NCBI GenBank assembly: GCA_947646735.1
Contig: CANTFK010000863.1
Coordinates: forward strand, 248,001 to 312,000
From: Peronospora farinosa
Taxonomy: Eukaryota; Oomycota; Peronosporomycetes; Peronosporales; Peronosporaceae
DNA length: 64,000 nucleotides
Reading direction: 5' to 3'
This document shows positions 5,901 to 26,948 of the stretch, piece after piece. The position numbers and the translations under genes are program-made. The notes beneath the pieces are model-generated. The model saw nothing but the letters and a program-made list of their open reading frames with translations, was not told the origin of the DNA and did no database searches. Position 1 is the stretch's first letter. Each line of letters begins with the position of its first letter.

Positions 5901-8133
5901 TGTCATGGCCAGCAATTCATTGTCGAACTGGTCGCTTCTCAGGTATGCCAGCGCCTCCTCTTCGTTTTCTTCAAACGTTCCAATGTCGACAGCAGCACCG
6001 GTGTAAGCTTCTAGCAAGTTTTCTACCAGAACCTCAGCCTGTTCAATTCCACCGACCCGCTCTAGAAATGCTGAGGCGATTTTTCTTGTAGAGACGGTAT
6101 GGTCAGTTTCCACTTCTGCTTCGCCGGTCTTCTCGTTCCCACTCTCTGGAGTCTTGTTTTCCGCGCTAGCAGTATCCTTAGACTGCGCCAGCATCAACAG
6201 CTTAGCAAAATGCCAGGGAGTTGCCTTTTCGTAATCCTTCAATGACTTGTACTTCTTTAACAGAGCTCGGCGATCATCAGATGTCTTGCTCGCCATGAGC
6301 TCCTTCGAAGAAATGAGAAGTGCCCATTGTACAGGAGCACCACGCATACGCATAAACGCAATGTGGGTTAGCGCTGCACGGCCTGCGCCTGTTAGTGGGT
6401 CAAGTACAAGAATGCATTCATACATATTCTTGCGAACAAAAATGAGGTTCCAAGCAGGACGTCTAAGCAGGTTTACATCAGGCGGCCAGTCGGCATAGTT
6501 CGAATCAATTTCAATGTTGTTCAGGTACAAAGGGGTCGTTCCATTCATGGATCCACGCATGTGGATACGAACCACAGGTTGCTCTTGGTTCGTTTCACGC
6601 ACATGTGTCAGCATGTCCTCCAGTTCCGATTGGTTCAAGGCTAAACGGCCTAGCTGCTTCGCTACCGACCACTCTTCTTTTAGTGTCTTCATGAAGTCAA
6701 ATACATTGAAAGAGCGTTCCATCGGGTCCACCGCAATACCATTCATGATGAACTTGTTTGTCAGTAGTCTACTTGCAGCTTGCATTCGCGTAACAGAAAT
6801 TTCTTTACGAAGCTCGGGGGAAATTATTTTTCGCGAAAACACCAGCTTTTTTACTTGCACAGGGAAGTCCTGTGAAAGTGTTTCAAGCATCTTCAGTGGA
6901 TTCTTTGCATCCATGATTGCACGCGCAGCACTCACGCCTACATCCTTCAAATGCCAGGCCTTCAGCTCCTGCTCTTGATCGCCATCTGCCTTTTTGACCA
7001 AGATGTCGTAAAAATGTTTCAAATCATCAGCAATAGCTTTATGACGAGCCATAAGAGGTTTAAACAGGAATCCTCCGACCTCTTCGTCCTCAATATCTTC
7101 CTCCTCTTCATTCTCTTCCTCATCCCCTTTACCATCGCCAACGGCATTCTCCTCTCCTGTCTTTTTCGAATCATCAAAAGTCTTGTACTCCATATTCTTG
7201 ATATCTAGCGCCACACCATATCCTTGTAATAACGTATCCAACGGCGAATCACGCGGATAGTGACGGACCATATACTGAATCTCATCTTTCTTTGCTTTCT
7301 TGGCAAGGTTCGTGTGAAAAGCATAGAACTTTTCCGTGCCCACAAGTCCATATAGAATCACCGACATGGGCGTTTTCACAGCGCTTGACGCAATGTGCGG
7401 ATACTTGTGGTCCACCTGCAACTCGACATCATTGCTACCAGCGGCCACACACACTTCGTGAGTCTCCTGTTGCTTGTTTCCATGTAGAATAGCCTCCAAC
7501 TCATTAACCGAGCAAGCCACAGACTCGACACATTGTGGTTCTTGATAAAATACCGCCCACGTGTCCACATCCGCTCCACACAGACGTGCCTTCGAGTCCA
7601 GAGCTAATTGACGGAACATCTCCACCTTCACTGAATAAGCGCGTGTTGCCAGCATCAGTTCCAAGATCTAGAGCACTCACAGTATAGTCAATCGACATTT
7701 CAATTGTATTCCTACTAAGTACCGTAAAACCAGTCTTTACGCACATTTTTAGAGCCAGGAGCGATACTCTCAGCAATAAACACTGCAAGTGCCCCCAGTG
7801 CATCCACGTCGTTCCTTATGTCATTAACGTACGATGTGCGTGTACTGAGCTCATCGACAAATTTCCAGAAGTAAAGCGGATTTTCCTCTGCTAGAAACTC
7901 GCTATATCACCCATACAAAAACACTGTCAAAAAATCATCGAGATCATTGGAAAGAATCTATTGACTGACTCATACCTCGTCTCTAGAAGCGGGAAAAACG
8001 GGGAGCTGGGCCAACTTGCCGTCAAGTTCACATGGACACCACGTGCAGACGTCACCGAAAGCTGCACCGTCGCTACCAATGCTGCTAAGCCGGCGTTTAG
8101 CAACGTTGTCACCCTCATTTTTTTGTCTTCCAA
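2967..8133 (-). CDS. UGGT: UDP-glucose:glycoprotein glucosyltransferase
   Basis: UGGT is the ER-lumen folding sensor that re-glucosylates misfolded N-glycoproteins so they re-enter the calnexin cycle. I reconstruct three exons: 8133-7976, 7901-7745 and 7667-2967. The introns are 74 and 77 nt with donors GTATGA and GTGCGT. The phases agree and give about 1,671 residues, the usual family length. Exon 1 gives a signal peptide and the conserved start VNLTASWPSSPFFPLLET, which joins to SEFLAEENPLYFWKF in exon 2. The middle holds the thioredoxin-like and beta-sandwich regions, with an acidic loop near residues 280-300. The C-terminal ~280 residues are the GT24 catalytic domain, with the DxD motif in IYVDADQVVR. 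Met at 8133 or 8118 could be the start; the latter lies directly before the hydrophobic signal. No KDEL/HDEL-type tail is visible. The stop codon lies inside a perfect GTAAGT donor, so a further 3' exon is possible. Confidence 0.93.
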
Positions 8134-8463
8134 TGATCTTATAAACTTGACTGATTCTTGATAGCCACGTGGAAGTGAGGGCGTTATATATTGTCATTCC
8201 GTCGCATTGGGATGTTTGTCATGTACTGTACTGCTCCTCTTCCCTCCGTTATCGCATAGGTGCTTACCTATCATTTCGCATACGTCCCCACTCCACTCGC
8301 CGCTAGTACGAAGTGAGATCGGCAGCGCGTGGTGCTTGCGTTTGTGCGTCTCTATCATTCTCTACAGAAGCAGTCGAGGATTTGCAAATCATCCGTTGTT
8401 ATTGCCAGTGTCTTCTCTACCTATTCATACCTTCTTTTACCTCTTAATCGTCCCATATCCACC
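8134..8463. promoter_or_regulatory. Shared divergent promoter region of UGGT and SNRNP70
   Basis: About 330 bp separate the start codons of two divergent genes, so both promoters must lie here or in the 5' UTRs. The part next to SNRNP70 is rich in C/T (for example around 8215-8310 and 8395-8460). I recognise no TATA box. The call is from context only. Confidence 0.45.
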
Positions 8464-9432
8464 ATGAACAATCCAAACGCGCACCGCAAGATGACGCCCA
8501 AGGGCCAGATGAGCTCTAGCGGCATGGGACCCGCCATCATGCACTTGCCCACGCACCTGAAAGTTTTGTTTGAGCCTAATGCACCGCTGGACCATTTACC
8601 ACGTCTAGTGAAGCGCAAAATGCCGCCGTATTCCGGTCTTGCCGACTTCTTGGACACGTTCGAGACGGAGAAGCCACCGCCTCGAGAAGTGCAAGAGACG
8701 CCCAAGGAGCGTCGTGACCGTCGTCGACAGGAAAAGATGGCAGAAAACAATGCCAAGATGAAGGAAGATCAAGCCAAGTGGGATCCAAACGCAGAAGACC
8801 CAAGGAAAACTCAAGACGCGTACAAGACGCTCTTTGTAGGACGCATTAGCTACGAGACTACAAAGCAGCAGCTTCGTCACGAGTTTGAGCAATACGGACC
8901 TGTCAAGAGTGTTCGACTGGTGGAAGATCCAGAAGGCAAGTCACGCGGCTACGGCTTTGTGGAGTATGAGAAGGAGGCGGATATGAAGGCTGCATTCAAG
9001 TTTGCTGATGGCAAAAAGATCGATGGGCGGCGTGTAGTCGTGGATGTTGAGAGAGGACGTACCGTGCGTGACTGGTTGCCTCGTAAGTTTGGTGGTGGCA
9101 TTGGTGAAACTCGCAAGGGAGGGGCGGATGTTAATGTCAAGTACTCGGGAAGAGAAGCAATTGGACACTTTCAGGTGGGTGCGTCCCGTGATGAGGGAGC
9201 GACAAGGACGGATCGGTTTGGACCTCGCGAACCTCCGCGCGATAGAAGCCGCAGTCGTGGACGTGGACGTGAGCGACGTCGATCACGATCAAAATCGAGA
9301 TCGCGGGACCGACGACGCGATCGCGGCGGTGACCGCAGTCGTGACCGTGATCGCAGCCGTGACCGGGATCGTGGTCGTGATCGTGATCGCCGTAGCAGCC
9401 GTGGTTCGCGTGACTATTCCCGTAGACATTAA
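8464..9432 (+). CDS. SNRNP70: U1 small nuclear ribonucleoprotein 70 kDa
   Basis: The 322-residue protein binds stem-loop I of U1 snRNA and helps select 5' splice sites in the nucleus. Residues 1-95 match the U1-70K N-terminal domain (FEPNAPLDHLPRLVKRKMPPYSG). An RRM follows with RNP2 LFVGRI (123-128) and RNP1 RGYGFVEY (161-168), then the conserved DVERGRTVRDWLPRKFGGGIG. The C-terminal ~85 residues are Arg/Ser/Asp dipeptide repeats, the RS domain. I chose the Met at 8464, which is preceded by CCACC. The frame is open further upstream to 8329, but those 45 residues look like leader DNA. No introns. Confidence 0.96.
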   Translation: MNNPNAHRKMTPKGQMSSSGMGPAIMHLPTHLKVLFEPNAPLDHLPRLVKRKMPPYSGLADFLDTFETEKPPPREVQETPKERRDRRRQEKMAENNAKMKEDQAKWDPNAEDPRKTQDAYKTLFVGRISYETTKQQLRHEFEQYGPVKSVRLVEDPEGKSRGYGFVEYEKEADMKAAFKFADGKKIDGRRVVVDVERGRTVRDWLPRKFGGGIGETRKGGADVNVKYSGREAIGHFQVGASRDEGATRTDRFGPREPPRDRSRSRGRGRERRRSRSKSRSRDRRRDRGGDRSRDRDRSRDRDRGRDRDRRSSRGSRDYSRRH

Positions 9433-10037
9433 GCTCACATCGAAATGATGGCCGCGCTGAGGCGACGAAGGTACATTGTATTAGCGCATGGTTTTTTTAA
9501 CTATTACAAAGGTAAGGAAACCTTCATTGTGGAGCGGTGTCTCGCTTGTGCTCAGAAACGTTCCTGTCGAATGTCGTCGTATAATGCCATTACGTTCACT
9601 TCTCCGCCAGCGTAAGTTGTTTTGCTATATACCTTCAGCGTTTTACTGACGCCATTGCTACAATGACGCTACTGACTGATTGCTGAGACCGTGAGGAATG
9701 TGTATTGATCGTGACTAAGAACAAGCACCAGTTCCGAAATATCCGTCGTTGATAGATGGACATGATTGTATCGGCTTGATAAACTCGCATTGCTAGTTTT
9801 TTCGAAAAAGCTCGAATAACACTTCGTCCGATGAATATGCACCTATGCGAGCTTTTGATACTGTTGTCCCTACTGCAGGCGCAAAATGAAGTGGACGTGA
9901 TGGTTGAACGAGTGCAAACAACCGGGATGATTGTCGCTACGGAAGTGTCCAAAACAGACGACAATGACGGTATCAACCAAGCATTTTTTTGTCTTTTTGA
10001 GAGGTCATTTTAGTACCGAGATTACTATGACAAAGGT
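9433..10037. other. Intergenic, no recognisable gene
   Basis: This is the 3' side of SNRNP70. Open frames on both strands (the longest is about 113 codons, minus) have no family resemblance. I see no RNA gene. Confidence 0.5.
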
Positions 10038-10134
10038 GATGATGACGATGATGACGATGATGATGACGATGATGACGATGATGATGACGATGATGACGAT
10101 GATGATGACGATGATGACGACGATGATGACGATG
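10038..10134. repeat. Microsatellite/minisatellite of GATGATGAC units
   Basis: This tract of about 97 bp is built from GATGAC and GATGATGAC units with few interruptions (near 10118-10122). It is open in several frames, giving poly-Met/Thr or poly-Ile/Val translations that I regard as artefacts. Confidence 0.95.
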
Positions 10135-11628
10135 GAAACAGCGATGATGCCTGTTAGTTTCTTAGCACCACTGACACCGTAAGCCGCTTGGACCATCACT
10201 TTTGCATTGATCAAAAGCTGTCGATGTGGTTTGAGAACTCACTTCCAGCTATCACTTGCAAAATGAAACAAGTGAGCTTCACATCTCGTGTTATCGTGCG
10301 AGTATACAGGTCACAAAAGTGCTGTGGTTTTATGCTGCCTCAATCAGCTGTGAGATCGCACACACCATATAATCCTGGGACCATCCTGGACATATCTTAT
10401 GGTCTAGTTATTTAAGCACCGACCTACCGACCTGTTATTTACGCACCGACTTCGGTCTCGGGTTCGATCAAGACTTTTCGATACTCTTGTATCGGAGTGC
10501 ACGACCGACCGCTCCAAAAGCAAAGATAATAACCTCTTAAAAATTGATGCTATCGATCTTTCCTAGCGAAGTTGATGACAACATTAATAGAATGAGTACT
10601 AGGGTGTTTACCCGTCGTTCCGACGGACACGGCGCGCGAACTCTACGCTGATATATATTGCTTATCATTTTACCTTAGAATATCCGGTTGACTCATGTAA
10701 ATTGATAAGAATGAAAGTCAATGTTAGAAAGGATAGTGTTGACAGGTTGTCAGGCTTTCAAGGTTCGAGTGCAATACCTTGGGATGGCGTCAATGTTTGT
10801 GTGACAGCTTGAAAGTTTAGACAAAGCATACGGTTTCAATGTGGGAGACACCGTACGAGATGGTCAGGTAAGACGGATGCCATCTGACACTTACATGGTC
10901 AAGGTGCAGTGTCGTTAGGGTGCATGTTGTTAAGTTGACAAGCTAGAGTAGTAAATGCTAAATATATTTTTCTTTTACTTCCAACAACCTTGCACAAGTG
11001 CAGTAATTACAAGCATCAAACTTCTACAGGCTATGAGGCGCCATTAAGTGTGATGGCGGTGCAGCTAGAAAAGATGGAACCGCCGTAGTAAACGACGACC
11101 TTAACCAAGCCGACGACCACCACTTAGTAGAGAAGTCAACAGCGCCCGTGGCGATGATGGACAAGGTGCTAGCTATGATCGGGGACCTATCCGAGGATAA
11201 AGGTCTCGCAGAAGGAGCAAGTCGGCAAGCACCAAAAGGCTCCCCGGAACCGATAATTTTTGGTTCAGTTTTGGGTGTCGGAGCGGAGACGAGTCTTCAG
11301 GCTTTGAAGCGCACACCGTCACCAAAGAAGTCGTCAAATGTGTCGCCAGCGATCTAGTCCAGGGTCAGGTGTCACAATCAGGCAGATGTTGGAGGACGTC
11401 CTGCGGCCCATGTTGCCGCGGACTACACCATAGGGGTAGGTAGGTATTATAGGCAGGAATGCTTGCAGGTTACTATTCCGGTGTGGTTATTCCGAACAGG
11501 ATGTATGCTCACCCTAGACCGCAAGCTGCGGGTAAGCTGGACGCACAGCATCGACAGACGCGTTACCTTTTGATGGCAAGGAACTTTACCATGGACTTGA
11601 TAGTGGGTTTTTTAGAATAGGGCAAGGG
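10135..11628. other. AT-moderate intergenic DNA with a small ORF remnant
   Basis: I recognise no gene. A 69-codon plus-strand frame at 11148-11357 (…PEPIIFGSVLGVGAETSLQALKRTPSPK…) reads like a low-complexity fragment of a protein. It might be a gag remnant of another retroelement, but I cannot place it. The stretch ends at the target-site duplication of the outer gypsy element. Confidence 0.4.
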
Positions 11629-11633
11629 ATTTG
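11629..11633. repeat. Target-site duplication (left) of the outer gypsy element
   Basis: The 5-bp sequence ATTTG precedes the left LTR. The identical ATTTG follows the right LTR at 27422-27426. A 5-bp duplication is typical of Ty3/gypsy integration. Confidence 0.9.
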
Positions 11634-12092
11634 TGTAACGGGGTGAGCCGTTTCATAATATTGACACTTATATGAAGTGTCAATAAAAATATTATAATAG
11701 CTAGTAATATTTGACAATATTACCTTTTCTTATAATATTGTTCCTAGATCTCCTTGAAGTTGGAGATGCCCTCTCATTGGTTGATATGGGCCATCATATC
11801 AACCAACGCGCTGACCAATGACCGATGGACGCGCGCAATGAGTGGAGGGCAAGTCGTCAACATACATAGTTGTAGTTTAATATAGTTAACATAGGTTATA
11901 ACAGATTAGTTTTATTAGATAGCTAACTATATTAAATACAGTTTCCTTTTTCTCTACTTCTAAGCGTATCGTTTAGAAGTAAAGCTTCATCTACCTCTTG
12001 TGTAAGAGAGGTAATTGAGGCACCTGCTTTCACTGTAATCAGTGAAAGTAGACTATACTGTAATCAGTATAATCGGAGGGTGCCCCATTACA
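11634..12092 (+). repeat. 5' LTR of the outer gypsy element
   Basis: This LTR is 459 bp, begins TGTAACG and ends CCCCATTACA. It is AT-rich at its start and pairs with 26962-27421. The 3' part contains hairpins such as CTTTCACTG-TAAT-CAGTGAAAG. Confidence 0.95.
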
Positions 12093-12094
12093 CC

Positions 12095-12112
12095 TGGTAG
12101 CACTTCGCAGTC
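12095..12112 (+). promoter_or_regulatory. Primer-binding site of the outer element
   Basis: The sequence two bases after the LTR begins TGGTAGCACTTCGCAGTC. TGG is the complement of a tRNA CCA end. The same first 11 bases occur in the inner element's site. It does not match the initiator-Met start TGGTATCAGAGC that I would expect in many gypsy elements. Confidence 0.7.
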
Positions 12113-12138
12113 CGTTCAGCGACCACCGCACCATCCGC

Positions 12139-13083
12139 TATGGAATCAGCGGGTGTGAACGTCATCACGCAACGCGTGATGATTTCCGCCATTTGAGTGA
12201 CCTCGAATGGAATGCGGTTCAGCGTATGGCTGAAACCATCGGCAACCCTGCCGTTGGTGCCATGTTGCTCTCTCTTAGCGGAGACGACCAACATGAAATC
12301 ATCGCCAAGTTCATACAACATGAACTTGACGAAGCTGTAAAGAAACTCACCTTGCTAGAGACGCAAGGTTCTCAACAGGTTAACCTGTTGAGAGAACAAG
12401 GCGCTCAACAAGCTGACTTGTTGATGCAGCAGGGTGCTCAACAGTCTGAACTGTTGAGACAACAGCAGGCTAGTGCTGTTGCTGCCGGGTCGACGTATGC
12501 ACGTCGACCCGAGTCCTTGAAGATTGATGTCTCCAAGTACAAGGCAGTCGAAAGCGACTCCTTGTTAAGATGGTTCGTCGAGCTCGACGATGCCATTGAG
12601 GCTCGTCGCATCGATGACGATGCGATGAAGGTCAAGTTCGCCATGTCGAACTTGGCAGGACGTGCCAAAGCTTGGGCCTTAGGGCTCAAACTGCACGACC
12701 CATACGTTTTCCCAACGTATGACGTCTTTAAGGCGCGGCTCAAACACACGTTTGAACCGCCTCGCGCCGAATTCAGGGCTCGGGCTGAGCTCCTGGATTT
12801 GAAACAAGGTAAGCGTGATATACACGCTTACGCCCAACACGTACGATACCTCGTTAGCTGTATCGTACTGAACCCAATCGATGAACACACGCAGGTTACT
12901 GTGTTCATCAAGGGTCTGACAGATGGTCCTGTTAAGACCCACCTGTTCCGCTTGGAACATAGAATCGCTGGATCAAGCGATCTCTGCAGCGGAACAGGAG
13001 GACTTTAGCCTAAACAACAGGCTCACGTCCACTCGGGGTCCTATCGTCCACCGAGACGACAGGAGGGCGGAGGTCCAGAACCA
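12139..13083 (+). pseudogene. Gag of the outer element (frameshifted)
   Basis: This is capsid-type Gag. A likely ATG at 12139 is in a frame that closes at about 12190, and the body continues in another frame (FRHLSDLEWNAVQRM…). The body is homologous to the inner element's Gag (…[13 protein letters not shown]…). It contains four Gln-rich QGAQQ/LLRQ-type repeats near 12360-12465 and a retrotransposon Gag core (DIHAYAQHVRYLVSCIV). Two more frameshifts, near 12957 and 13015, precede the zinc-knuckle part in the next entry. It is not translatable as one protein. Confidence 0.85.
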
Positions 13084-13923
13084 ATGGACCTCTCCTATGT
13101 AGAGAGCGAGCGACCTCGCTCTCCAGGGTACAAGCGATTGCAAAAGTGCAATCGCTGTCAGAAGTTGGGCCACTACGCTTATGAGTGTAGTGCCCCACGC
13201 CCAGTGTCTCGTAACACTGGTAGTGACGATCGATCGTCTGCCAAGAAGGGCCAGAGACGTGGGTCCCACGTTGCTGCGAAATCGCAACAACGTGGTGGAC
13301 CATCAAAAAAACGGTCGGGGTCAGTAGGGGCGGAGCGCCCTACTGATCCAGCAGCGTCAAGAGAGTTCGCGGGACTCTTGACGAGGGTTGCTCCCAACAC
13401 ACAGTCACTGTGTGTTGCCGCTCCTAGTGATGAGGTATCCCTCATCACCTTGAAGATCGAAGTGACAAAGAACATGTCACTTCGCGCCCTAGTTGATTGT
13501 GGGGCTTCGAACAACTTTGTTCGACGCCAATCGCTAGATGATCGTAGGCTCAAATATGTTGAGCGCGAGACCTCTCCAACGAGGATGACGGTGCGCCTTG
13601 CAACTGGCGCATTTGTTACCGTAAAGAAACGTGTAGTGGGAATTAACTACACGCTTGAAGGCAAAAAGTACGATGATGATTTCATCGTACTTGATCTGGA
13701 TGACAAGTTTGATGTCATCCTAGGATTACCATGGCTCAGAAGGTACGAGCCATGGGTCAGCTGGCAGCATCGAACCGTGAAGATGCCTGCCGCTTGTTCA
13801 TCAGATGGCCATCTGATGAACGTCTTGGAGCGTTCACAAGCGTGTGAATATACTACGAGTTTATGTGTGATGGCCTCACTTGTGGTTCGGTCGTTAGTAC
13901 GACTGCACAAGAACTCAGCGTGA
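13084..13923 (+). pseudogene. Gag zinc knuckle and protease of the outer element
   Basis: This 279-codon frame begins with the nucleocapsid zinc knuckle CNRCQKLGHYAYEC (about residues 22-35). An aspartic protease domain follows. The catalytic motif is VDCGASNNFVR, with Cys where most families have Ser or Thr, and the later flap/strand motif is DVILGLPWLRRYEPWVSW. The frame ends by frameshift at 13923, and about 370 bp of linker follows before RT. Confidence 0.85.
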
Positions 13924-14301
13924 CAGACAGTCACGCTGTGAAGCAAGCTGCCGGCGGCTGTGCACAAGCACAGGCAGCGCCGAAGGTACACCACTCGAAT
14001 AAGTCGAGTGGACCGGGACATGAATGCTCGCCTAGAGGGCAGCATTCACCGAAGAGTAAACCGGTTGCCCAGTAGCGGCAACAAGGTAATCCTAGATCAA
14101 CTGGAGAGTTAATCGTAGAGGATCTCGCTGTGGTTGCGCCACCACAGCTAGAGGAAGTAGATGTAACAAGTTCCATCGAGCCTGCGGGGATCAAGTTCCC
14201 AGGAAATAATCACTGAGGGAATAAGTCCCCAGTGCCCTGAGGAAATAAGTCCCCAGGAAGTAAGCGAGACGTTGAACTCAGTTGCCTACGCTAGAACCTA
14301 A

Positions 14302-15687
14302 AAGGTTCTGCGTGATCTGCGTAATGGCAAGGTCAAGCAGATCTGTTTGCTTGTCGCAGAGGACGAGTACATGACTGACATTCGGTCAGCAGCAATTTTT
14401 GCCGAGAACGAACGGGTTCTCAGCAGCTCATCAATGGACGAAAGTGTCCTTGATGAGAAGACTCGGATTGAACGATATACATCGCAATCCTGGGAGTCGC
14501 TGAAGTCAAATCCTTTGTACAAGGATTTGGTCGAATTCAAGGATGTATTCCCTAAATCCGTTCCGTGCGAGTTACCTAAGGATAAAGGTACTCGACACGA
14601 GATCGAACTTGTTTCTGGCACAAAATATTGTGTCATGAAGCAGTGGCCACTGCCTCGAGAACAGGTCGAGGCGATCGACAAGTTCTTTGCCGATCGCCTA
14701 GCAGCGGGCCATGTGAGGGAGTCAACTTCACCTCACAGCTCTTCGACCTTCTGTGTGCGCAAGGCCACAGGAGGGTGGCGGATAGTACACGCGTTCAACA
14801 AGTTGAACGCTGCAACGATACCGGCGCAAAGGCCGATACCGAGAAAGGACGTAATCATAGATGGTATGTCTAAGAGTACCATCTTTTCGTCCATGGATCT
14901 GATGGATGGTTTCTATCAGATCCTAATGCGTGAACGAGACATCCCGTACACAGCAGTGAGCACTCCCAGTGGTATGCTCTGGGAATGGTTGGTGATGCCG
15001 CAAGGGCTTAGTAATGCACTAGCCACATTCAATAGATGTGTTTCACATCTATTGAGACCGGTGCGCGAATTCGCACCGAGTTACTTCGATGATGTGTTCG
15101 TCCATAGTCGAGCTATGGACGGGAAAACAGACGTGGTAGTCCATAGACTCCACGTCCGTAAGGTTTTTACACTTATGCGCGAGCATAAGTTGTACGCCAA
15201 CCTCAAGAAGTGCATATTCGCAGCTAGCGAAATACCACTTCTTAAGTGCATCGTCGGAAAGAACGGCGTACGCCCTGATTCAGAGAAGATCAAGGCGATC
15301 ACCGACTGGCCAGTACCAGTCGATGTCAAGGGACTAAGGAAGTTTCTTGGGCTAGCGGCGTACTTGCACAAGTACTCGCGCAATTACGCCGAAATGACAG
15401 TACATCTTTCTTGTTTACTCAAGAAAAATGTAAAGTGGAACTGGAACGCTGACTGTCAGCGTTCCTTTGAACGTATCAAGCAAAGCTTGATGCAATCGCC
15501 AGTATTGGCGATTGCCGATCAAGACAGACCATTAAATGTGGTCTGTGACGCCAGTGATTTTGTAATCGGCTGCGCACTGATGCAATATGATATAGACGGC
15601 GCCGAGCGTGTCGTCTGTTATCAATCGCGTCAGCTGCAACCGGCTGAGCGCAATACCCGGTGCATGACAAGGAACTCCTTGCCATGA
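14302..15687 (+). pseudogene. Reverse transcriptase and start of RNase H, outer element
   Basis: The frame opens after an in-frame stop near 14299. It contains the RT entry motif (ELPKDKGTRHEIELV), the first catalytic Asp in SSMDLMDGFYQI, and the active-site box SYFDDVFVHS, a variant with Phe before DD. It continues through the RNase H start (VVCDASDFVIGCALM) and ends by frameshift after QLQPAERN. The catalytic residues themselves are intact. Confidence 0.9.
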
Positions 15688-15908
15688 AGTATGCACTGGC
15701 TAAGTTTCGCGTCTATCTCTTAGAAGATAGACCGTTCATTGTATATACAGACCATGCATCACTACGCACAGCTGTAAATAGTCCACACCTCTCGCAACGA
15801 ATGGCGAGATGGTTGTCGTTCTTCGCGGAGTACAACTTCTCCGTGGAGTATAAACTGGGACAACTTAACGTCGTCGCCGATGCTCTTTCACGTCGGCCTG
15901 ACCTATAG
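15660..15908 (+). pseudogene. RNase H C-terminal part, outer element
   Basis: This frame continues the RNase H domain after a frameshift, with HDKELLAMKYAL, YTDHASLRT and VADALSRRP. An in-frame stop at 15906-15908 separates it from integrase. Confidence 0.9.
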
Positions 15909-15914
15909 CCGACT

Positions 15915-17524
15915 GTGCAATCCGACAGTGATGTAAACACCACTGTCGCCACTCTGAGTACCAGCGTCTTGTCGTCGAGCTTACTCGACGACATTAGAAG
16001 GGCATGCGCACAAGATAATGATCTTGTACGCCTGATGGAGTACCTCAAGGACCCATCCACGCAAGCTAAGAAGCGCTTGCCTGCCATGTATCGATCTTCT
16101 CTCGATCGATACACCCAGCGGAACGGCTTACTGTACTATACAGCCGTCAACAACGACACGCCTCGTGTCGTTGTACCACCACAACATGATCTCAGGTTAC
16201 GGATCATGTTAGAATGTCACGATGCACCAATAAGTGGGCATCGCGGCCGTGAGAAGACTTACATCACGGTCAGTCGCGACTTTTACTGTCCACGCCAGTA
16301 CAAGTTTGTGCGCAAGTACGTGCGTGCTTGCGAGGTGTGTCAACGAGTGAAGCCTAGTCCTTCACTCCGTGCACCATTGCATCCTCTACCTGTTCCGGCA
16401 GAGTGCTGGGAGTCCGTATCAATGGACTTCGTCTTTGGGTTTCCCAAAGACGCTCACGGGAATAATGGTATTCTTGTGTTTGTAGACAGGTTCAGCAAAA
16501 TGGTACATCTTGTTGCTGTACCTGAGTCGATCACAGCAGAGGGCTGTGCTCGAGTGTTTATCAAATCAATCTTTCAATTGCACGATTTACCCCGTGAACT
16601 TGTGTCCAATAGGTACCCCCCCCCCGGTTCACGGCTGAGTTTTGGCGTTCCGTTTCCAAACACTTGGAACACGGCTCACAATGTCTACTTCTGACCATCC
16701 AGAAACTGATGGACAGACTGAACGCGCCAATCGCGTCTTCGAAGAGATTCTTCGAGGGTACGTCCACTCGTTTACGAGTTGGAGTGAGTTCTTGTCGATG
16801 GTCGAATTCGCCATCAACAACTCCGTGCATGCCTCCACGACGCATACACCGTTCTACGTGAATGGCCTTCGCCATCCACGTGTCCCCACCTTAGTAGAGG
16901 GTGACTTTAATTTAAGGGGGGGAGAGACTCGCTCGAGCGAGAACCAATCTGGCTCTTGCTCATTACGCGACGACGTTATGGTCGACGCGAAAGTAACCGA
17001 AGTCGTACCATTCGACTTCGGTGAAGAGGAAGAAAGTAAGAGCAATGACGCTCCTACTGATAACGATGCTGAAGATGTAAGCATCGTTCGAGGTATCACA
17101 AGTGAGAACAGTAATGTTCTCGCTGAATTAGTAACCGATATCTCTGCAGTGCACTCACAATGCACTGCAGCCAAAAGCAACGAGTCAGCTGAGGAATTCC
17201 TGCTGACTCGTGAAGCGGTAGTCCGTTTCGTGCAAGACTCCATCGCAGAAGCGGTGGACAAGCAAAAGCGAAACGCAGACAATAATGGAAGGGAAAATGC
17301 TCAGACATTTATTGAAGCTGGTTTAGTTTTACTGTCAACAGTAAACCTACCTAAACATGTAGTGACTAACGTGAGCAGCAATAAATTGTTGCCCAAGTAC
17401 ATCGGCCCGTTTCGTGTATTGCGCCGCCTAGGCAACGCATACACGATCGAGTTTCCATCCTACGTTTTACGTGGGACGTCTTCGTCCGTACGTTCAGTAC
17501 GCTGCTTCTTCGAACGACGAAGAT
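15915..17524 (+). pseudogene. Integrase of the outer element (broken)
   Basis: The N-terminal part has the HHCC zinc motif (HDAPISGHRGREKT … CEVCQRVK) and the first catalytic Asp in SVSMDFVFGFP. The second catalytic box, normally SDRDPRF, reads SNRYPPP at a run of ten C residues (16615-16624), which also shifts the frame. The next frame (from about 16642) holds HPETDGQTERAN and the catalytic Glu region. It then runs through a linker to the SH3-like C-terminal domain (PKYIGPFRVLRRLGNAYTIE). Another 1-base shift occurs near 17455. The restored frame HPTFYVGRLRPY runs into the insertion point at 17524. Confidence 0.88.
17520..17524. repeat. Target-site duplication (left) of the inner gypsy element
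   Basis: The 5-bp sequence AAGAT lies directly before the left LTR and is repeated at 25256-25260 after the right LTR. Confidence 0.92.
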
Positions 17525-17862
17525 TGTAACGGGGCTAGAACGTACCGTCACTAGCTTACACGCGCGCTCGAGAAAGACTCAAGCCCAAGTATTAGGTATT
17601 AAGTAAATTTAACTCTGATTTTTATTTTGGTTTTAATTCGTACTAATTACGAAGATTTTAGTCGTAATAAATACGACAGTGTTCCCGCCTTTCGGGAACC
17701 ACACAATTTCAGGTTGATTTATCATTGGTCCATATTGGGGACTTTAGGCCCAATAATAAACCAATAATAAATTACCACGCTGTGCCCGCTATTCGAGCCC
17801 AGCACCTACCTACATATGTAATTGTTTATTCATATTAATCCTATGTAATGTAGCCCATTACA
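17525..17862 (-). repeat. 3' LTR of the inner gypsy element
   Basis: On the plus strand it begins TGTAACGGGG and ends CCCATTACA. It is paired with 24918-25255. Confidence 0.95.
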
Positions 17863-17873
17863 TCACCCCCTTC
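17863..17873 (-). promoter_or_regulatory. Polypurine tract of the inner element
   Basis: On the minus strand the sequence GAAGGGGGTGA abuts the 3' LTR. It is the expected plus-strand DNA primer. Confidence 0.75.
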
Positions 17874-17875
17874 AC

Positions 17876-19329
17876 ATGACAGCGCTCACCAACCGTGAGC
17901 GCTCAACTGTCGAAAACCCTTCGCCTACAAACGAACAAGCAATGTCCGGAGACCCAACACCCAGTCCAGCAGCACCCCTAAGGAACGTCAGCGGGAGTGC
18001 ATCAGCCAACATCATGGCGCGGCAGCTCATACCTTTGTCGCTGTACGACTTGTCCGGAGCTCACGCTCCGGACTCACTGGACATGATGCGGGACTATTTC
18101 CGCCGATTTCGAAAACTACGCGGGAAAGGTCTTGATGGAATCGAGCATTAAGCTCTACAACGTTCTTGGTGCGCATTCATACAAAGTTGGAATCGGATGC
18201 TTGAGGATGGTAGCAGCTTCTAGTTATGGCTCGCCAATCGAGAGGAGATTCGCGCCGATCACTCCATCGGCGCGCTACGCGAAAGAGTGTGTGAGGATGC
18301 TTGGAATGAGGACCGTCTCTGCTTCGTCCATGTCAATGAAGGATGCCAATCTTGTGACTCGACTCCACGCCCAACTCATGACGAATGGCGACGACACATC
18401 GCTGAAGTGATCGCGAACGAAGTTGGATTGCGAAGTATGAGCGAAGTCTGGGCGAACGGAGAAGCGCAGTTATTCGTGGTGCGCCCCGCTGGCGGCACCA
18501 CTCGCGACAGTGGAGTCAATCTCCGCGGGATCATCAGCGCAGGGCAGCGACACGTTCGCCTGCCCGTCCAGTTGCGCGATTCTCGCCTCGCAATTGTGAT
18601 ATGTATTCACCGCGACATTCTCGATCACGGCATCGATCTCGTTCGCGACATCGTTTGCGTTCGCGACATCGTTCTCGTTCGCGTCATCGTTCTCGTTCCC
18701 GACGACGTGGATCTCCTTATCGCTCTCGTTTGTCACAAGAGCGTTCGCGTGCTCGCCCGCCTTGGAATAGCCCGACTTCGTGGCTTCATACGACAGAACC
18801 ACATCTGGAACGTCACGAAGGAGCGAGAAACGTGGTTCCCATGTATCCTGCTCGGGAGGGAATCCAAGCCAACGTACTCGGTACCTACGCACGGATGGAA
18901 CCGCACGCTTCTCATGAGCCGACTGCAGTAATGGTGGTGGAGGGTCCTCGTGACCCACAATGCGGTCTACAATCCAGCGCACCTGTCCCTCCGCATCAAC
19001 AAGCGGAGGAGGGCCCTCGCGGTGGTAGTGCTGGCGTCCTGGTTGCTCAGGACGATGTTGATCAGGCCGTGAATATAGCTGCCGATGCTCGGCTGGAGGC
19101 TGAGGCTGCCAGTGAACGTGCTGCCCAGGCGGAGAAGACTTCGAGTGAGACCCGGCAGTCGAACCGTGAACTGCTCGAGCGGATAAGGATTCTGGAGCGC
19201 CAGATTCTTGGTCAGGACCAGACGGGATCGAGACCCCGCCCCATGTCATCGGCGCGTCGATCACGACGGGAAGGCCGTTCGACTTACGAACCCCTGAAGC
19301 CGGCGTCGGAGCCAAACCGTGAAGCGTAG
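17876..19329 (+). pseudogene. Antisense reading frame of the inner element
   Basis: This frame runs against the element's own genes. It starts with an ATG 14 bp from the 3' LTR. It continues in one frame to about 18590, interrupted only by TAA at 18149 and TAG near 18221, then shifts into the frame open to 19329. The predicted protein of about 480 residues has a Trp-containing N-terminal region and then an Arg/Ser/His-rich tract (SRSRHRSRSRH type, 18601-18715). It ends with an Ala/Glu-rich coiled coil (near 19045-19210). It overlaps the sense integrase/chromodomain frame. I recognise no family. The outer element has an antisense frame at the same place, so I doubt it is chance. Confidence 0.5.
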
Positions 19330-19537
19330 CCGGACGATATTCCTTCAGCCGCCCGACATAGAATGTCGGGTGGAGTCGCAGTGAAGAGGGGACGTCGAGT
19401 GTATAAGCGTCGCCGATTGCCTTCAGAACCTTGAATGGACCGATGAAGCGTGGCGCGAGTTTACTCGCGCCCAGGTTAGTGACCGCTGAATCCCTTAAAC
19501 CTTCCTTAGATAATAATACGCGATCACATTTTCTCAA
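18470..19537 (-). pseudogene. Integrase C-terminal domain and chromodomain, inner element
   Basis: This minus-strand frame of 355 codons contains the SH3-like integrase tail (APRFIGPFKVLKAIGDAYTLD, LHPTFYVGRLKEY), a Pro/Gln/His-rich linker and a chromodomain (IVDRIVGHED … YRVRWLGFPPEQDTWEP). Chromodomains direct chromovirus integration to particular chromatin marks. The frame is joined upstream by shift to the linker frame 19524-19880 (…MAVSEFILQRQAITHFVRDAL…). Confidence 0.9.
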
Positions 19538-19880
19538 ACTTGCTCATGTTCTTTCTTCCATGTTTGTCAGCGTTCTCCTTCTGTTGGTCTACAGCAGTTT
19601 GTAGTGCGTCGCGTACAAAATGGGTGATGGCTTGACGTTGGAGTATAAATTCCGACACGGCCATGTCATCAATTGGTCGTGCCGAATCAATCGGCGCGTA
19701 GTTGGCAGTAGGTGAACGCTTACCCGAAGACGGGTCAATCAATGTCTGCGCAGTCCATCGAGCTAATGGGGACGCCACGTCTGATGGCGTCAAAATGGCC
19801 ATCAGACGTGGCGTCCCCATTAGCTCGTCATTTACAAGTTGGAGTGCATTTTTACCACTCGCTGAGTTCGCACTCAACAA
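19524..19880 (-). pseudogene. Integrase linker region, inner element (rearranged)
   Basis: This minus-strand frame holds the conserved linker helix preceding the integrase tail (QRQAITHFVRDALQTAVDQQKENADKHGRKN). Its upstream end runs into the fold-back repeats, so part of the original linker is lost or inverted. Confidence 0.75.
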
Positions 19881-19968
19881 CGCCGTGCACGCCCTGTTGA
19901 CGCGTGCACGGCGTTGTTGAGTGCGAACTCAGCGAGTGGTAAAAATGCACTCCAACTTGTAAATGACG
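19759..19968. repeat. Two adjoining long inverted repeats (fold-back rearrangement)
   Basis: The first palindrome has 30-bp arms (19759-19788 and 19798-19827) around a 9-nt loop. The second has 67-bp arms (19826-19892 and 19902-19968), again around a 9-nt loop. The arms appear perfect. The shared CG at 19826-19827 is the junction. The middle block 19798-19892 is thus an inverted copy made of pieces from both sides, as expected from template switching. Confidence 0.95.
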
Positions 19969-21511
19969 TAGCATAACTCCGAAGAACATCTTCGAGGACT
20001 CGGTTCACGCGCTCGGTCTGCCCATCCGTTTCCGGATGGGATGCCGTCGACATCAGCAGTTTTGTCCCGAGGAGCTCGAAAAGTGATGTCCAAAATGCGG
20101 ACGTAAATCGCGGGTCACGGTCCGAAACAATGTTTTCTGGAAGGCCATGATGACGGAACACCGCGTCGATGAAGTGCGCCGCGGTCTCTGCCGCGGTGAC
20201 CTTAGCGTGAACAGGCACGAGATGTGTCATCTTGCTGAATCTGTCAACGAAGACCAAGATGCCCGTTCGAGCTTGGCTATCGGGCGCAAGCCCGAAGATA
20301 AAGTCCATCGAAACTGATCTCCAGGCCTCTCCTGCAATTGGCAACGATCCCAAGGGAGCCTGTGATGATGGAGATGGCTTCACACGCTGGCATTTTTCGC
20401 ACGTTCGGATCCAGTTGCGTACCCACTCATACATGTGGGGCCAGAAGAAGTCTCGAGACACAGCCGCGAAAGTCTTTTCGCGGCCTAAATGGCCGCCAGC
20501 AGGAGCATCGTGATACTCGTGAATGATTCTTGCACGCAAATTCATGTCATTGGCAATCACCGTGCGAGGAGAATCGAATTGGTCGATGCTATACAGAAGC
20601 AAATCGCCATCTAAACTGTATCGATGAATATGATCGCGCTTGGTACGAGATAATGCTCCCAGTGCAGCATTGCTGTGAGCACGCAGATACTCGATAATGT
20701 CTGCATAATCTGAGTCACCCTTGTACGCTGCGACGATCTCATCAAATAAACACGGCTCGGGTGTAACCCGAGTTAAGTTCAGCGATACACACATTGCACA
20801 TCGGTCATCATCGTCCTCTTCATCAGTAGCCTGGCGACTCAGAGCAGTCCGAGATTCGTAGTCGGGACGTCGTGACAAGGCGTCAGCGAGAATATTGGTC
20901 TTGCCTGGCTTGTAATGCACGACGAAGTTGTACTCAGAGAAGAATGAGAGCCATCGTGCCATCCGTTGGGACAGGTGTGGGCTCTTCATCGCTGTGCGCA
21001 GCGATGCATGATCGGTATACAAAGCAAACGTACGTTCACCAAGGAGATGCACGCGAAACTTGATGAGTGCATAGCGCATCGCTAATAACTCTTTGTCGTG
21101 AACCGGATAGTTCTTCTCAGCTGGCTTCATCTGTCGCGACTGGTAACTCACGACTCGTTCACGGCCCTCATCATCAAATTGCATGAGGGCACAACCGATT
21201 GCAAAATCACTGGCGTCGCAAACCCCGTGGAACGGCTTGGAATCGTCTGGTAGGACCAGGACTGGCGCTGACGCCAGGCTCTTCTTTACTGCTTCGAAGG
21301 CTGCTTGGTGCTCGGGACGCCACAACCACGTGGCGTCTTTCTTCAAGAGTGACGACAAAGGCTGGATAGAACCAGCATAATCCTTCGTATACTTGTGCAA
21401 ATAATTAGCCAAGCCGAGCCACTGGCGCAACTCCGTAGGGTTCTTGGGCGTGGGCCAAGAACAGATGGACGACACCTTCTCTGGATCAGCTCGAACTCCC
21501 GATTTACTCAC
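19874..21511 (-). pseudogene. RT thumb, RNase H and integrase core, inner element
   Basis: This minus frame of 545 codons contains the RT connection (LGLANYLHKYTKDYAGSIQPL) and RNase H (GVCDASDFAIGCALM, YTDHASLRT, LADALSRRPD). Integrase follows with the zinc motif (HDAPAGGHLGREKT … CEKCQRVK), first Asp (SMDFIFGLAP), second Asp (VSDRDPRFTSAFW) and the Glu region (HPETDGQTERVNRVLED). All three integrase catalytic residues are present, unlike the outer element. The frame ends in the fold-back. Confidence 0.92.
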
Positions 21512-21514
21512 ATA

Positions 21515-22129
21515 TCAACCTAACACCGGAATCTCCGGTGCACAAAAGACACACTTCTTGAGATTCGCGTACAACTTGTTGTCCCGCATAACTTGAAACA
21601 CTTGCTTCAGGTGTTGAAGGTGAACTTGGACATCGTTGAGGTTGCCCTCGGCGCGACTATGGACGAAGATATCGTCAAAATAACTTGGAGCAAAGTTCCG
21701 AAGAGGTCTCAACACTTGAGACACCATGCGATTGAAAGTGGCCGGAGCGTTCTTCAACCCTTGTGGCAGTACCAGCCACTCCCATAACATGCCACTCGGG
21801 GTGCTCACCGCGGTGAGTGGGATATCGCTCGGGCGCATCAAAATCTGGTAAAAGCCATCGGTCAAGTCGATGGCACTGAAGATGACACTTCCTACATCGA
21901 ATTTAGCACCATGTCCTTCCTGAAAAAAGGCGTTTGCGCAGGAATAGTGGCATCATTCAACTTATTGAACGCATGCACTATCCGCCAGCCTCCCTTAGTC
22001 TTCTTCACGCAGAAGGTTGGACTCAAATGTGGTGAGAAACTTTCTCACGCACATGACCCGCTTTGCGGCGGCCTTCAAAAAATGCGTCAATAGCTTCAAC
22101 TTGATCTCGAGGCAACGGCCACTGCCGTG
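21515..22129 (-). pseudogene. Reverse transcriptase core, inner element
   Basis: The minus strand has TDGFYQILMR, LPQGLKNAPATFNRM and the active site SYFDDIFVHS in the frame 21515-21865. Further upstream pieces (GGWRIVHAFNKLN) lie in other frames with at least two shifts and a stop near 21895. The RT is not translatable as one chain. Confidence 0.88.
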
Positions 22130-23890
22130 TCACACAATACTTCGACCCTGGCACGAGATCAATCTCGTGCCGAACACCGCGGTCCGAGGAAGTTCAGCCG
22201 GGATCTTGTCCGGGAACACGTCTGCATACTCACGAGCAATGTCGTAGACGGGGTTACCAGACTCTCGCAGGGCCTCCCAAGACTGTGATGCAAACCTTTC
22301 TTCACGCGCAGACTTCGGCTCAGCGCTTCGAGGACGCGCTATATGCTCTTCGTTTGCCACGGTAACCACCTCGTTGGTGATTAGACACACTTGTTCCACA
22401 GTGCCTCCCTTAAGGTCACGTAGGAAATGCTTCCAGGAAAGCCCTGGAAGACTTGTAATGGAAGACGCATTACGAGGAGGACTCTCGACCTCGATATATT
22501 GGCGCCTTTGTGGACTCCCTTCCACGTACACGATAGCGTGGACACATTCCAACGCTAAATTCTCGGTGCTGTTGTCCCCATCGTGCTTCGAGTCACTACT
22601 CGAAGCTGGCGAACCGCAGTCAGGTGATAAACCATCACCCCCCTCTAGGCACTGGATGTCGTCATCCAAGATGCCGGAAACACTGGACGGGAGTAACCCA
22701 AACTCGACCGTCGACACTTGATGCGGGAGCTCCTGCTCGGCCGCCGTAAACCCGTGTGGGAGCCCCTGCTTAACCACAGTATGCCCATGTGGGAACCTCG
22801 GTTCGACCACAGTGGGTGATGATGGGAACCCCGGTTCGACCATCATGCTCTCGCGTGGGGACTCCTGTCCTTCCACGTTGTACTCGTGTGGGAGCCCCTG
22901 CTCAACCACAATATGCCCATGTGGGAACCTCGGTTCGACCACAGTGGGTGATGATGGGAACCCCGGTTCGACCATCATGCTCTCGCGTGGGGACTCCTGT
23001 CCGTCCACGTCACACTCGCTGGCGAGCTCTTGCTCGTCGCCACAATGCCCTTGTGGGAGTTCCTGCTCGACCACAGTAGGTGCAGATGGGAACCCCGGTT
23101 CAACCACTGCATTCACGTGCAAGAACCCCTGTTCAACCGCATTAATGACGCGCGGAAACCCCTGTTCGACCGCGTCGTCCTCGTCGTCCTCTTCGCTCTG
23201 TAGCGAGGAGTCACTGTCACTTGTGTCTCGAAGAACAGCACAAGCAGTGCAGAGAGGGCCATAGCTCGCTCTGTGCACCGCCAACGTCGTGGAATCACGA
23301 TCCACGACTGTGACGTTCGGCCAGTCACTTGGAGATACCAAGAGATGGGTAAACACTTCACTGACATCAAACTTGCGTCGACGTCTCACTGATCTGGATA
23401 ACCAGTCGATCTGGGGCTTATAACGTGCCAACCATGGCATGCCCAGTATGCAATCGAATGCATAATTCATTGCGATCACCAAGAAATCATCATTACTGCG
23501 AAAGCCATCAAACGTATACGGCAACGACACTTCGCGCCGCGATACGCGGTGTGGTTTCCCGTCAGCTAACTTGACGACGACTTGGCCAGGTCCCTCACGG
23601 ACCTGAATGCTGGGAGGCAGCATCGACAAACAAGATTCACGAAAAAAATTATTCGTTTCTTCTGAGTCCAGGAGTGCTCGCAGAGGTCGCCGGACGCCGG
23701 CGACATGTAAACTGACAATAATCAGACGTGAATCACCACTCGTAGTGGTGGCATTTAACCGTGCGCGTAGCGCAGGAGGACTGGAAGGTTGGGCTGCCAC
23801 CGGAGGACCCGGACCTCCGTTCCAACCAGTAGGGCGCCCTGCACCTACTGGTCCCGACCGTTTTTTGGACGTGCGGCCGGTACAGCACAC
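22130..23890 (-). pseudogene. Protease and protease-RT spacer, inner element
   Basis: The minus frame of 586 codons overlaps the end of Gag by 46 bp. It contains an aspartic protease fold ([19 protein letters not shown]), but the catalytic box reads [11 protein letters not shown], with Glu in place of the invariant Gly. A long acidic spacer with in-frame repeats follows, then the start of RT ([14 protein letters not shown]), where the frame is lost. Confidence 0.85.
22740..23180 (-). repeat. In-frame tandem repeats in the protease-RT spacer
   Basis: Two near-identical units of 132 bp (44 codons; compare 22781 onward with 22913 onward) encode [24 protein letters not shown] sequence. They are flanked by shorter degenerate units of the VVEQxLPHG type. 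The repeats keep the frame open. Confidence 0.85.
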
Positions 23891-24891
23891 TCATGATGGG
23901 CGTCCACTACTTGCACCGATATTGGGGCTGGCGCACGGCACTCTGCCGCGCGATGTCCTGGCTTGCGACAACGAAAGCAAACCATTTGACGCCCGTTGCG
24001 AGCGTCACCTTTATGAAAGACACGTCGCCGGTCACCCGACGACTCAATAACGTCGATCTCCATAGGTTCTGGACCAGAAGGCCGGGGAACGCTGACGACC
24101 GAGGGTTTGGCATATGCCTTTGTGACCCTAAAGTCTTCACGGAGTGCGATGGAAAATGCCTCCTCCAATGTGGCAGGCTCGGCGCGCTCCAGCGATAAGC
24201 GGGTCTGCCCCTCACGCATACCATCCACAAAGACATTCAACTGCGTGTACATGTCCATGAGGTGCGTGATAATACACGACGCCAGATGCCTAGCCATCTG
24301 TACGTAGTCGCGCATCGCCATTTTACCCTGTCGCATCGACAGGAATCTTGATCGCACCAGTTTCTCCTCTTGTGGTGGCTCGAAAGCAAGACGGAGATCG
24401 TCCTGGATGGTATCCAAGGTGGGGAATGCGTGCTCGTCCACAACGAGCTTACCAAGGGCCCACTCCTTGGCCTTCCCGGTGAGGCGGGAAAGAAGAAAGT
24501 TGACCTTCACCTGGGGAGCCTCAAGAAGTCTCGAGGCGATGGCGATATCAACTTCTCGGAACCACCGATTCAGCGATAACCGGTCCTTACCTTCTCCAGA
24601 GTAGGAGGAGGTTTCCATCTTCACGGCCTCATAACGTGAAGGGCGCGAGGGAGTTAAGCCTCGCCGGTTGGATTCGGCGAGCTCGCGTGCCATAAAGTCA
24701 TGTATGGCGAGACGTTGCGCGTCAGGAGTCGCTGATCTCATCAACGACGCGACGAATACCTCTCCCGATATCGCCGCGAGGCGATTCAGGGCATCCCACT
24801 CAACACCAGTAAGATGGGGGAAGGTCGCGTGCTCCATAAATAAATCTGGAGCGTCAAAGTACGACGATTCGCTCATCCCAAACTCGGGCAT
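23845..24891 (-). CDS. Gag of the inner element
   Basis: This open frame of 348 residues encodes a retrotransposon Gag. It has a capsid-like core ([14 protein letters not shown] … [16 protein letters not shown] … [19 protein letters not shown]) and a C-terminal zinc knuckle [14 protein letters not shown]. It is the only inner-element gene that looks intact. It starts 27 bp from the 5' LTR; the Met at the sixth codon is also possible. Gag forms the particle that packages element RNA. Confidence 0.9.
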
Positions 24892-24897
24892 AGGAAG

Positions 24898-24915
24898 GAC
24901 TACAAAGTGCTACCA
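24898..24915 (-). promoter_or_regulatory. Primer-binding site of the inner element
   Basis: On the minus strand the sequence two bases after the 5' LTR begins TGGTAGCACTTTGTAGTC. It equals the outer element's site except at two positions. Confidence 0.72.
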
Positions 24916-24917
24916 GG

Positions 24918-25255
24918 TGTAACGGGGCTAGAACGTACCGTCACTAGCTTACACGCGCGCTCGAGGAAGACTCAAGCCCAAGTATTAGGTATTAAGTAAA
25001 TTTAACTCTGATTTTTATTTTGGTTTTAATTCGTACTAATTACGAAGATTTTAGTCGTAATAAATACGACAGTGTTCCCGCCTTTCGGGAACCACACAAT
25101 TTCAGGTTGATTTATCATTGGTCCATATTGGGGACTTTAGGCCCAATAATAAACCAATAATAAATTACCACGCTGTGACCGCTATTCGGGCCCAGCACCT
25201 GCCTACATATGTAATTGTTTATTCATATTAATCCTATGTAATGTAGCCCATTACA
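24918..25255 (-). repeat. 5' LTR of the inner gypsy element
   Basis: This 338-bp LTR is nearly identical to 17525-17862 and would drive the minus-strand transcript. It is followed by the AAGAT target duplication. Confidence 0.95.
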
Positions 25256-25260
25256 AAGAT
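25256..25260. repeat. Target-site duplication (right) of the inner element
   Basis: AAGAT, identical to 17520-17524. Confidence 0.92.
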
Positions 25261-26861: not shown

Positions 26862-26948
26862 AGCGAGAAAAATGTTGGAATAAAAGAAAATTCAACAAGT
26901 GCTCCTTTTCCATAGTCACTTAACAGTCACTAATGTGACTGTTGGTTG

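Follow-up and report, generated by a model that had tools for sequence, protein, structure and literature searches.

Genome-scale ordered RNA structure (GORS) is a property of positive-strand RNA viruses whose coding genomes carry consecutive stem-loops, with a folding energy well below that of shuffled sequence and stem positions poorly conserved among relatives (PMC7642675). The minimum folding energy difference (MFED) given there is 7.5-10.7% for hepatitis C virus and about 15% for SARS-CoV-2, and 23.4% is termed the highest recorded (PMC7642675). Dispersed packaging signals are established for the phage MS2 and others (PMC4751978, PMC6281560, in excerpt), and in Phytophthora infestans two classes of Gypsy element are covered over their whole length by small RNAs of either orientation (PMC3522703, in excerpt). 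Here we analyse a 64,000-nt stretch of the Peronospora farinosa genome (the window; contig CANTFK010000863.1), in which a Ty3/gypsy retrotransposon with long terminal repeats (LTRs), our family A, is saturated with short perfect hairpins. A large excess of local stems is computed along the whole element, LTR and genes alike, beyond both dinucleotide and codon shuffles, and in predicted folding energy the excess is graded over four gypsy families: A 40%, D 33%, B 13% and C 9%. This is probably a gypsy lineage in which selection favours a genomic RNA folding on itself locally and almost completely, a retrotransposon counterpart of GORS. No published description of hairpin-saturated gypsy elements was found in open-licence full text, as judged by titles and the beginnings of abstracts.

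The family A element has two LTRs and gag, protease and reverse transcriptase (RT)-RNase H upstream of integrase, the organisation of a Ty3/gypsy LTR retrotransposon and the order seen in oomycete Ty3/gypsy elements; Pfam matches are Retrotrans_gag, RVP_2, RVT_1, RT_RNaseH and Integrase_H2C2. A second gypsy element, of family B, is nested within it. The outer element resumes beyond this insertion and so exceeds the interval 11634-17524 treated in a preliminary description of this DNA, which was made from the letters alone.

11634-17524, plus strand: outer gypsy element (family A), 5' part, with LTR, gag, protease, RT-RNase H and integrase; 76 perfect short hairpins
25256-27421, plus strand: outer element, 3' part, past the inner insertion; 35 perfect short hairpins
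11634-12092, plus strand: 5' LTR of the outer element, 97.2% identical to 26962-27421
26962-27421, plus strand: 3' LTR of the outer element, the pair of 11634-12092
17525-25255, minus strand: inner gypsy element (family B), nested in the outer one; LTRs 98.8% identical; 40 perfect short hairpins
12370-12511, plus strand: densest run, five near-abutting gag hairpins (12370-12393, 12405-12424, 12437-12458, 12460-12481, 12486-12511)

Perfect inverted repeats with arms of at least 7 bp and loops of 0-10 nt were counted and set against 100 dinucleotide shuffles (30 for the right flank) and, for each open reading frame (ORF) stretch, 200 synonymous-codon shuffles. The whole outer element holds 111 such hairpins where shuffles hold 4.6. 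Its 5' part accounts for 76 (dinucleotide shuffles 3.5 ± 1.9, maximum 8) and its 3' part, which is the denser, for 35 (1.1, maximum 5). Codon shuffles were exceeded in all six ORF stretches tested, with 14 hairpins against 1.4 (maximum 6), 15 against 1.1 (3), 16 against 1.2 (6), 8 against 0.6 (3), 7 against 0.5 (4) and 19 against 1.4 (5). These two kinds of shuffle rule out chance or base composition as the cause, and bear out the excess that the preliminary description had expected; all 14 of the hairpins it quoted were recovered, within 1 base of the ends given. It was also right that neighbouring sequence is unlike the element: the left flank (1-11000) has 4 hairpins against 6.3 in shuffles, without excess, and the right flank (28000-64000) 29 against 21.6 ± 4.5 (maximum 31), no clear excess. 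The saturation of the outer element thus stands, but the accompanying statement that the inner element does not look like this was mistaken, as the latter has 40 hairpins against 4.7 (maximum 11), or 5.2 per kb; a hairpin array and two long palindromes are among its structures. Arms in family A are mostly 7-11 bp, the longest short-loop perfect arm being 13 bp; loops peak at 4 nt, 75 of the 111 measuring 3-7 nt, and the excess is lost above about 12 nt. Median hairpin spacing is 47.5 nt, and the density of direct repeats does not exceed that of the right flank.

Copies were sought in the 46.85-Mb, 274-contig eukaryotic assembly containing the window, the best 40 candidates being scored per search. 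Over gag, family A is present at 96-100% identity in at least 40 places, the window's included. All eight family A loci counted (L001-L008, flanks included, L001 being the window's own) have 11.0-16.6 hairpins per kb, so that sister copies share the pattern, as had been predicted. Families B (L039, L040, L043) and C (L038, L041, L042, L044) have 4.3-5.8 per kb where about 0.4-1.1 are expected. Family D is also present in at least 40 places at 96-100% identity (40 scored of 1377 candidates), namely the 2.8-kb sequence L078, on which alone the D results rest, and 39 further copies at 96-99%; L078 has 2.1 hairpins per kb against 0.5 expected. There may be a fifth family as well. Twelve copia loci (L045-L056) show a weak excess, 61 hairpins against about 26, the highest being L048 (11) and L046 (8). 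There is none in 29 non-gypsy RVT_1 loci, with 38 against about 70, although 26 of these were assigned by match length alone and many are near-duplicates judging by identical scores; the label 'non-LTR' is Pfam-based for three, L009 and L015 (RVT_1 without RNase H or integrase) and L029 (RVT_1 and endonuclease). Flanks and non-LTR loci together rule out a property of the region or of all repeats. No relatives were confirmed in viral_contigs, and an Rfam scan of 11600-27500 gave no family reaching gathering score.

Predicted folding was compared in 300-nt fragments with dinucleotide shuffles, percentages being the energy below shuffles. The sense strand of family A lies 40.1% (5' part) and 42.5% (3' part) below them, and the difference runs across the element, all 19 fragments of 11634-17524 falling at 12-63% and all seven of the 3' part at 31-53%. 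Family B gives 13.0% on the sense and 13.1% on the opposite strand, and family C 9.4 and 10.7%. No energy excess is seen in one copia locus (L045, 0.9%), two non-LTR loci (-1.9 and 1.8%) or host genes (0.9%). Among single-stranded RNA (ssRNA) phages the sense values are 29.4% for MS2, 28.7% for Qbeta, 26.5% for PP7 and 23.3% for AP205. Against codon shuffles A remains at 41-43%, D at 28%, C at 8% and phage genes at 21-30%, with two host genes at 0.2 and -0.2%. The z-scores suggested earlier as a check are likewise extreme in A, -7.3 to -14.4 in six fragments, against -3.4 to 1.8 in eight gene fragments (both strands, both shuffles). In the RT of A, moreover, predicted pairs favour one codon register, class 2 making up 0.54-0.60 against 0.41-0.44 in codon shuffles; gag of A shows no such preference (0.40 versus 0.40).

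Family A thus shares with GORS viruses consecutive stem-loops, low energy and positional turnover (PMC7642675, in excerpt). It differs in degree, with an MFED of 40-43% against at most 23.4% in the viruses of that excerpt, a comparison across fragments of 300 and 350 nt and different shuffling programs (PMC7642675), and in kind, as an LTR retrotransposon that replicates through DNA and whose stems are nearly perfect (A) or bulged (D). Since it encodes RT and integrase and is not a positive-strand RNA virus, it would work like GORS while lying outside the class as defined. The ssRNA phages examined (Leviviricetes: MS2, Qbeta, PP7, GA, AP205, SP) resemble A in that both strands are strongly folded, in a local inverted-repeat excess (MS2, Qbeta) and in having about as many single G-U as A-C stems; they differ in that perfect 9-bp stems are rare and double G-U pairs are preferred.

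Each family has its own helix style: long perfect stems in A, short single-bulge helices in D, and an array of hairpins with a 2-nt bulge in B and C. Folds of the 5' part of A contain 78 helices of at least 8 bp against 24.2 in shuffles, long and uninterrupted, and about three quarters of spans are 30 nt or less. Family D has short helices, none of 10 bp or more, and many single-base bulges, 57 and 56 on the two arms against 15.9 and 15.1 in dinucleotide and 18.3 and 17.0 in codon shuffles; 1x1 loops are fewer than expected (15 against 34.0 and 31.6). In place of the bulges of D, Qbeta and PP7 show 1x1 mismatches in excess. The D style is stable for folding windows of 150, 300 and 600 nt, and the bulged bases are A 44, G 37, T 26 and C 6. 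Outside arrays, loop-proximal 1-nt bulges favour the 5' arm over the 3' arm in A (15:5, p 0.041) and D (11:2, p 0.022), and with 1-2-nt bulges of the four families pooled the ratio is 45:24 (p 0.015); host genes give 12:8 and 19:15, MS2 6:0 and six phages pooled 15:9.

The B/C array lies in the linker between protease and RT, where A also has tandem units.

22686-23110, minus strand: 33-bp tandem array of bulged hairpins in the protease-RT linker of the inner element, 13 units aligned
14190-14260, plus strand: short tandem units with hairpin potential in the protease-RT linker of A, the same linker as the B/C array

The predicted array unit is an outer stem, a 2-nt bulge on the 5' arm, a 4-bp inner stem and a tetraloop. 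Across 27 units picked by period and not by pairing (13 B, 14 C; 25 distinct), the covariation score is 0.365 against 0.166 ± 0.018 in shuffled sets (0 of 500 as high) and at most 0.113 when the frame is slid, and 43 cells are altered on both sides against 17.1 (0 of 500) and 6-19 when slid. The 5' bulge is kept while its letters vary; RNAalifold alone recovers the five outer pairs and no more. In A, tandem units in the linker (14190-14290) differ in number among copies (L002-L008, L076, L077, L079, L080), and the window copy is about 100 bp shorter there than the other copies shown.

A single hairpin common to A, B and C stands at the gag-pol junction. Sites of -1 programmed frameshifting have an X_XXY_YYZ heptamer, a spacer of 5-9 nt and a stem-loop.

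13306-13312, plus strand: A_AAA_AAC slippery heptamer, candidate gag-pol -1 frameshift site, common to A, B and C
13321-13346, plus strand: candidate frameshift-stimulating hairpin, 8 nt past the heptamer, present in A, B and C

The three families agree in heptamer, in spacer and in the hairpin that follows, and at the base of the stem a T-A pair of A has become C-G in B and C. A similar hairpin occurs in family D, where the heptamer was not seen in the one D sequence. Where gag ends here, its stop codon starts 19 nt downstream of the heptamer's first base, within the 5' arm of the hairpin; the TAG of copies other than the window's corresponds to 13325-13327. In seven of eight copies (L002, L003 and L005 of A, the inner element and L039 of B, L041 and L044 of C) heptamer, spacer and stem-loop are followed by pol in the -1 frame, which in L039 is interrupted 339 nt on; the exception is the window copy of A, with gag and pol in one frame. 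Judged from sequence, A_AAA_AAC and the hairpin after it are built like a gag-pol -1 frameshift signal in all three families, and supply a candidate site of this type for oomycete gypsy elements. Retroviral and retrotransposon sites likewise combine an X_XXY_YYZ heptamer, an 8-nt spacer, a stem-loop and pol in the -1 frame; the difference here is that the gag stop sits within the 5' arm.

Four observations favour selection at the RNA level: covariation in the B/C array, bulge styles that differ by family, the frameshift hairpin and, in RT, the codon register of the pairs. On this reading the stems would be made by selection and not by a mutational process, the folded form would be the sense RNA, and selection would act on overall foldedness, so that most individual hairpins could turn over. 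The main benefit would be that antisense transcripts and small RNAs are hindered from pairing with the RNA, which also offers no long duplex to Dicer, the stems being too short on both strands; packaging or compaction would be an alternative benefit. Shielding of this kind would require that both strands fold, as both are predicted to do. The preliminary description had thought of escaping or feeding RNA silencing, selection for a compact RNA, and palindrome perfecting as causes; RNA-level selection comes out ahead, while perfecting fits the perfection of the A stems, but four tests for it, given below, were negative. Feeding silencing is unlikely, as the longest A arm, 13 bp, is below the usual length of a Dicer substrate.

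Several results weigh against selection on a folded sense RNA. Hairpin positions, expected to be conserved, are not: of alignable A hairpins, those still at least 80% paired number 2 of 14 in B, 0 of 15 in C and 1 of 11 in D; between B and C, 7 of 18 and 8 of 23 are shared. Lack of positional conservation between relatives is itself a described GORS property, which bears on the non-conserved hairpins of A (PMC7642675, in excerpt). The compensatory changes foreseen occur in the frameshift hairpin and the B/C array, whereas most A hairpins lack them: between A and the other families, pairing survives a double change in 26 of 73 cells, and by our arithmetic about a third would be expected to do so. 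Within the copies of A, B or C covariation amounted to none or single cases, scarce because the copies are recent; the pair 25335/25363 (TA versus GC) and a stem in L094/L100 are such single cases and were not counted. Even in the array, pairs with double changes (7 against 5.7; 56 of 500) and pair types (19 against 17.6; 148 of 500) are not significantly raised. In a McDonald-Kreitman-like comparison of shared and private variants, the depletion of shared variants in A arms with an unbiased arm definition is not significant (odds ratio 0.60, p 0.14-0.20); an apparent depletion (5 shared and 212 private against 45 and 527, p 0.003) held only with a majority-state arm definition and was discarded.

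Nor is the sense strand singled out. The opposite strand of A lies 43.2% and 38.9% below shuffles in the two parts, and that of D 40.4% against 32.9% for sense. The G-U share of pairs is equal on sense and opposite strands in A (6.8/6.9) and D (4.4/4.4), and in all four phages is higher on the sense strand (9.9-11.1 versus 7.8-10.6). Single in-stem mismatches in A are G.T 20 and A.C 24; as six phages have 20 single G-U and 16 A-C stems, single mismatches do not discriminate, and we dropped these counts as evidence for a DNA-level process after the phage controls. Double G-U and double A-C stand at 18 versus 4 in the phages and 5 versus 3, few counts, in A. The loop-proximal bulge bias is not seen in the 3' part of A (6:6) or, away from the array, in B (8:7) and C (3:3), and in whole folds bulges are evenly divided between the arms (D 57:56, A 30:26), which leaves the 5' bias as weak evidence for the sense strand.

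A wider proposal, which we put forward tentatively, is that these elements form a hyper-folded gypsy clade with a family-specific helix grammar written into coding sequence, that of A consisting of perfect 8-12-bp hairpins, as a shield from antisense and small RNAs or in place of packaging signals. As part of this same tentative proposal, they may be the most strongly self-folded natural coding RNAs among those compared.

A different origin would need no function at all. In palindrome perfecting the nascent strand snaps back at imperfect repeats during reverse transcription and copies its own arm, stems becoming perfect over many cycles while proteins merely filter the outcome. Template switching at quasipalindromes is known from bacterial DNA replication, and would yield short perfect inverted repeats with small loops. 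We consider this origin unlikely as the full explanation, though it accounts well for several features. The A stems are far more perfect than those of the phages, with perfect 9-bp cores at 6.1 per kb in the window copy, 10.6 in two gag copies and 3.5 in two RT copies, where six ssRNA phages have 0-0.7; loops are short, with no excess beyond about 12 nt; the strands are symmetric, G-U is not preferred and positions turn over; and the effect is strongest in LTR elements, with no excess at non-LTR loci. A snap-back event is in fact visible in the inner B copy.

19759-19968, minus strand: two abutting snap-back palindromes in the inner B copy, perfect arms of 30 and 67 bp, loops of 9 nt

These palindromes consist of inverted copies of both flanks; between those flanks L039, L040 and L043, the sister copies compared, carry a different sequence of about 176-180 bp. 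The structure resembles the product of a template switch or of two fold-backs at a broken end (synthesis-dependent end joining), and host break repair could account for the event. Four tests for perfecting in A were negative. Private substitutions that perfect near-stem mismatches number 21 against 22.6 expected in 24 copies, a comparison of low power as most changes are post-insertion; loop inversions occur at 23 places against 43 for a plain-reversal control, none beyond it; derived changes in RT fall about equally in 5' arms (23 of 93) and 3' arms (24 of 85); and arms in RT do not evolve faster than the remainder (0.266 versus 0.275). Family A accordingly differs from described quasipalindrome template-switch mutagenesis (PMC7202029, in excerpt) in bearing no signature of ongoing correction. 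Template copying alone would not leave the 2-nt bulge of B and C or the single-base bulges of D, although the reading frame could protect bulges. RNA-level selection and perfecting may both have acted in A. Should the stems be made by reverse transcriptase instead, this would be a new mutational force on genomes.

Less probable again is that the stems are dispersed packaging signals, many stem-loops of family-specific shape bound by Gag or its zinc-knuckle domain; as packaging is also an alternative benefit within RNA-level selection, its odds overlap with those of the favoured explanation. The family-specific shapes, the B/C linker array and the related repeats in A would suit such a role. 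Less suited are the A loops, which have no common motif when compared by eye, the 1-2-nt bulges of B and C outside the arrays, which are no more frequent on 5' than on 3' arms, and the median spacing, which is in our opinion denser than a capsid seems to need. A DNA-level role, in which palindromic DNA forms cruciforms or directs chromatin or integration, would suit the strand symmetry of A stems and energies but is very improbable, as perfect palindromes are scarce in D, with 6 in 2.8 kb where 1.4 are expected, yet its predicted folding is near that of A, and the frameshift hairpin is an RNA feature.

If selection for a self-folded RNA is the correct explanation, large-scale RNA folding extends beyond RNA viruses and phages, its most extreme case among those compared being an LTR retrotransposon. 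With one lineage in one genome ranging from 9 to 40% and using different stem styles, the purpose of genome-wide RNA folding, be it silencing escape, packaging or translation, becomes directly testable.

Some further observations concern the history of the elements. The nearest proteins to family A include those of Peronospora matthiolae (86%), Pythium oligandrum (85%) and P. farinosa (80%). The A RT (14347-15684) matches a protein of Pythium oligandrum, a mycoparasite, at 85% identity across 79% of the query, whereas one host gene in the window reaches only 51% with its Pythium oligandrum counterpart; from these sequence comparisons a horizontal transfer of family A between downy mildews and Pythium oligandrum is possible. 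In L002 (1-1032; G000:C42) a truncated inverted A copy lies head to head with the start of a plus-strand A copy, as a nested insertion or fold-back. On the minus strand at 25390-26637 an antisense ORF of 415 amino acids, without Pfam match, overlaps a stretch on the plus strand that resembles a chromodomain when an alignment is inspected by eye; the ORF may be a mirror effect of palindromic sequence. The neighbouring gene at 55719-56858 (minus strand) matches a Peronospora effusa protein with 97% identity across 89% of the gene's length. Both window LTRs carry a longer-looped hairpin (11876-11936 and 27205-27265; arms of 13-15 bp, loop of 31-35 nt), and the same 13-15-bp arms are found in the 5' LTR of all eight covering A loci, L001-L008.

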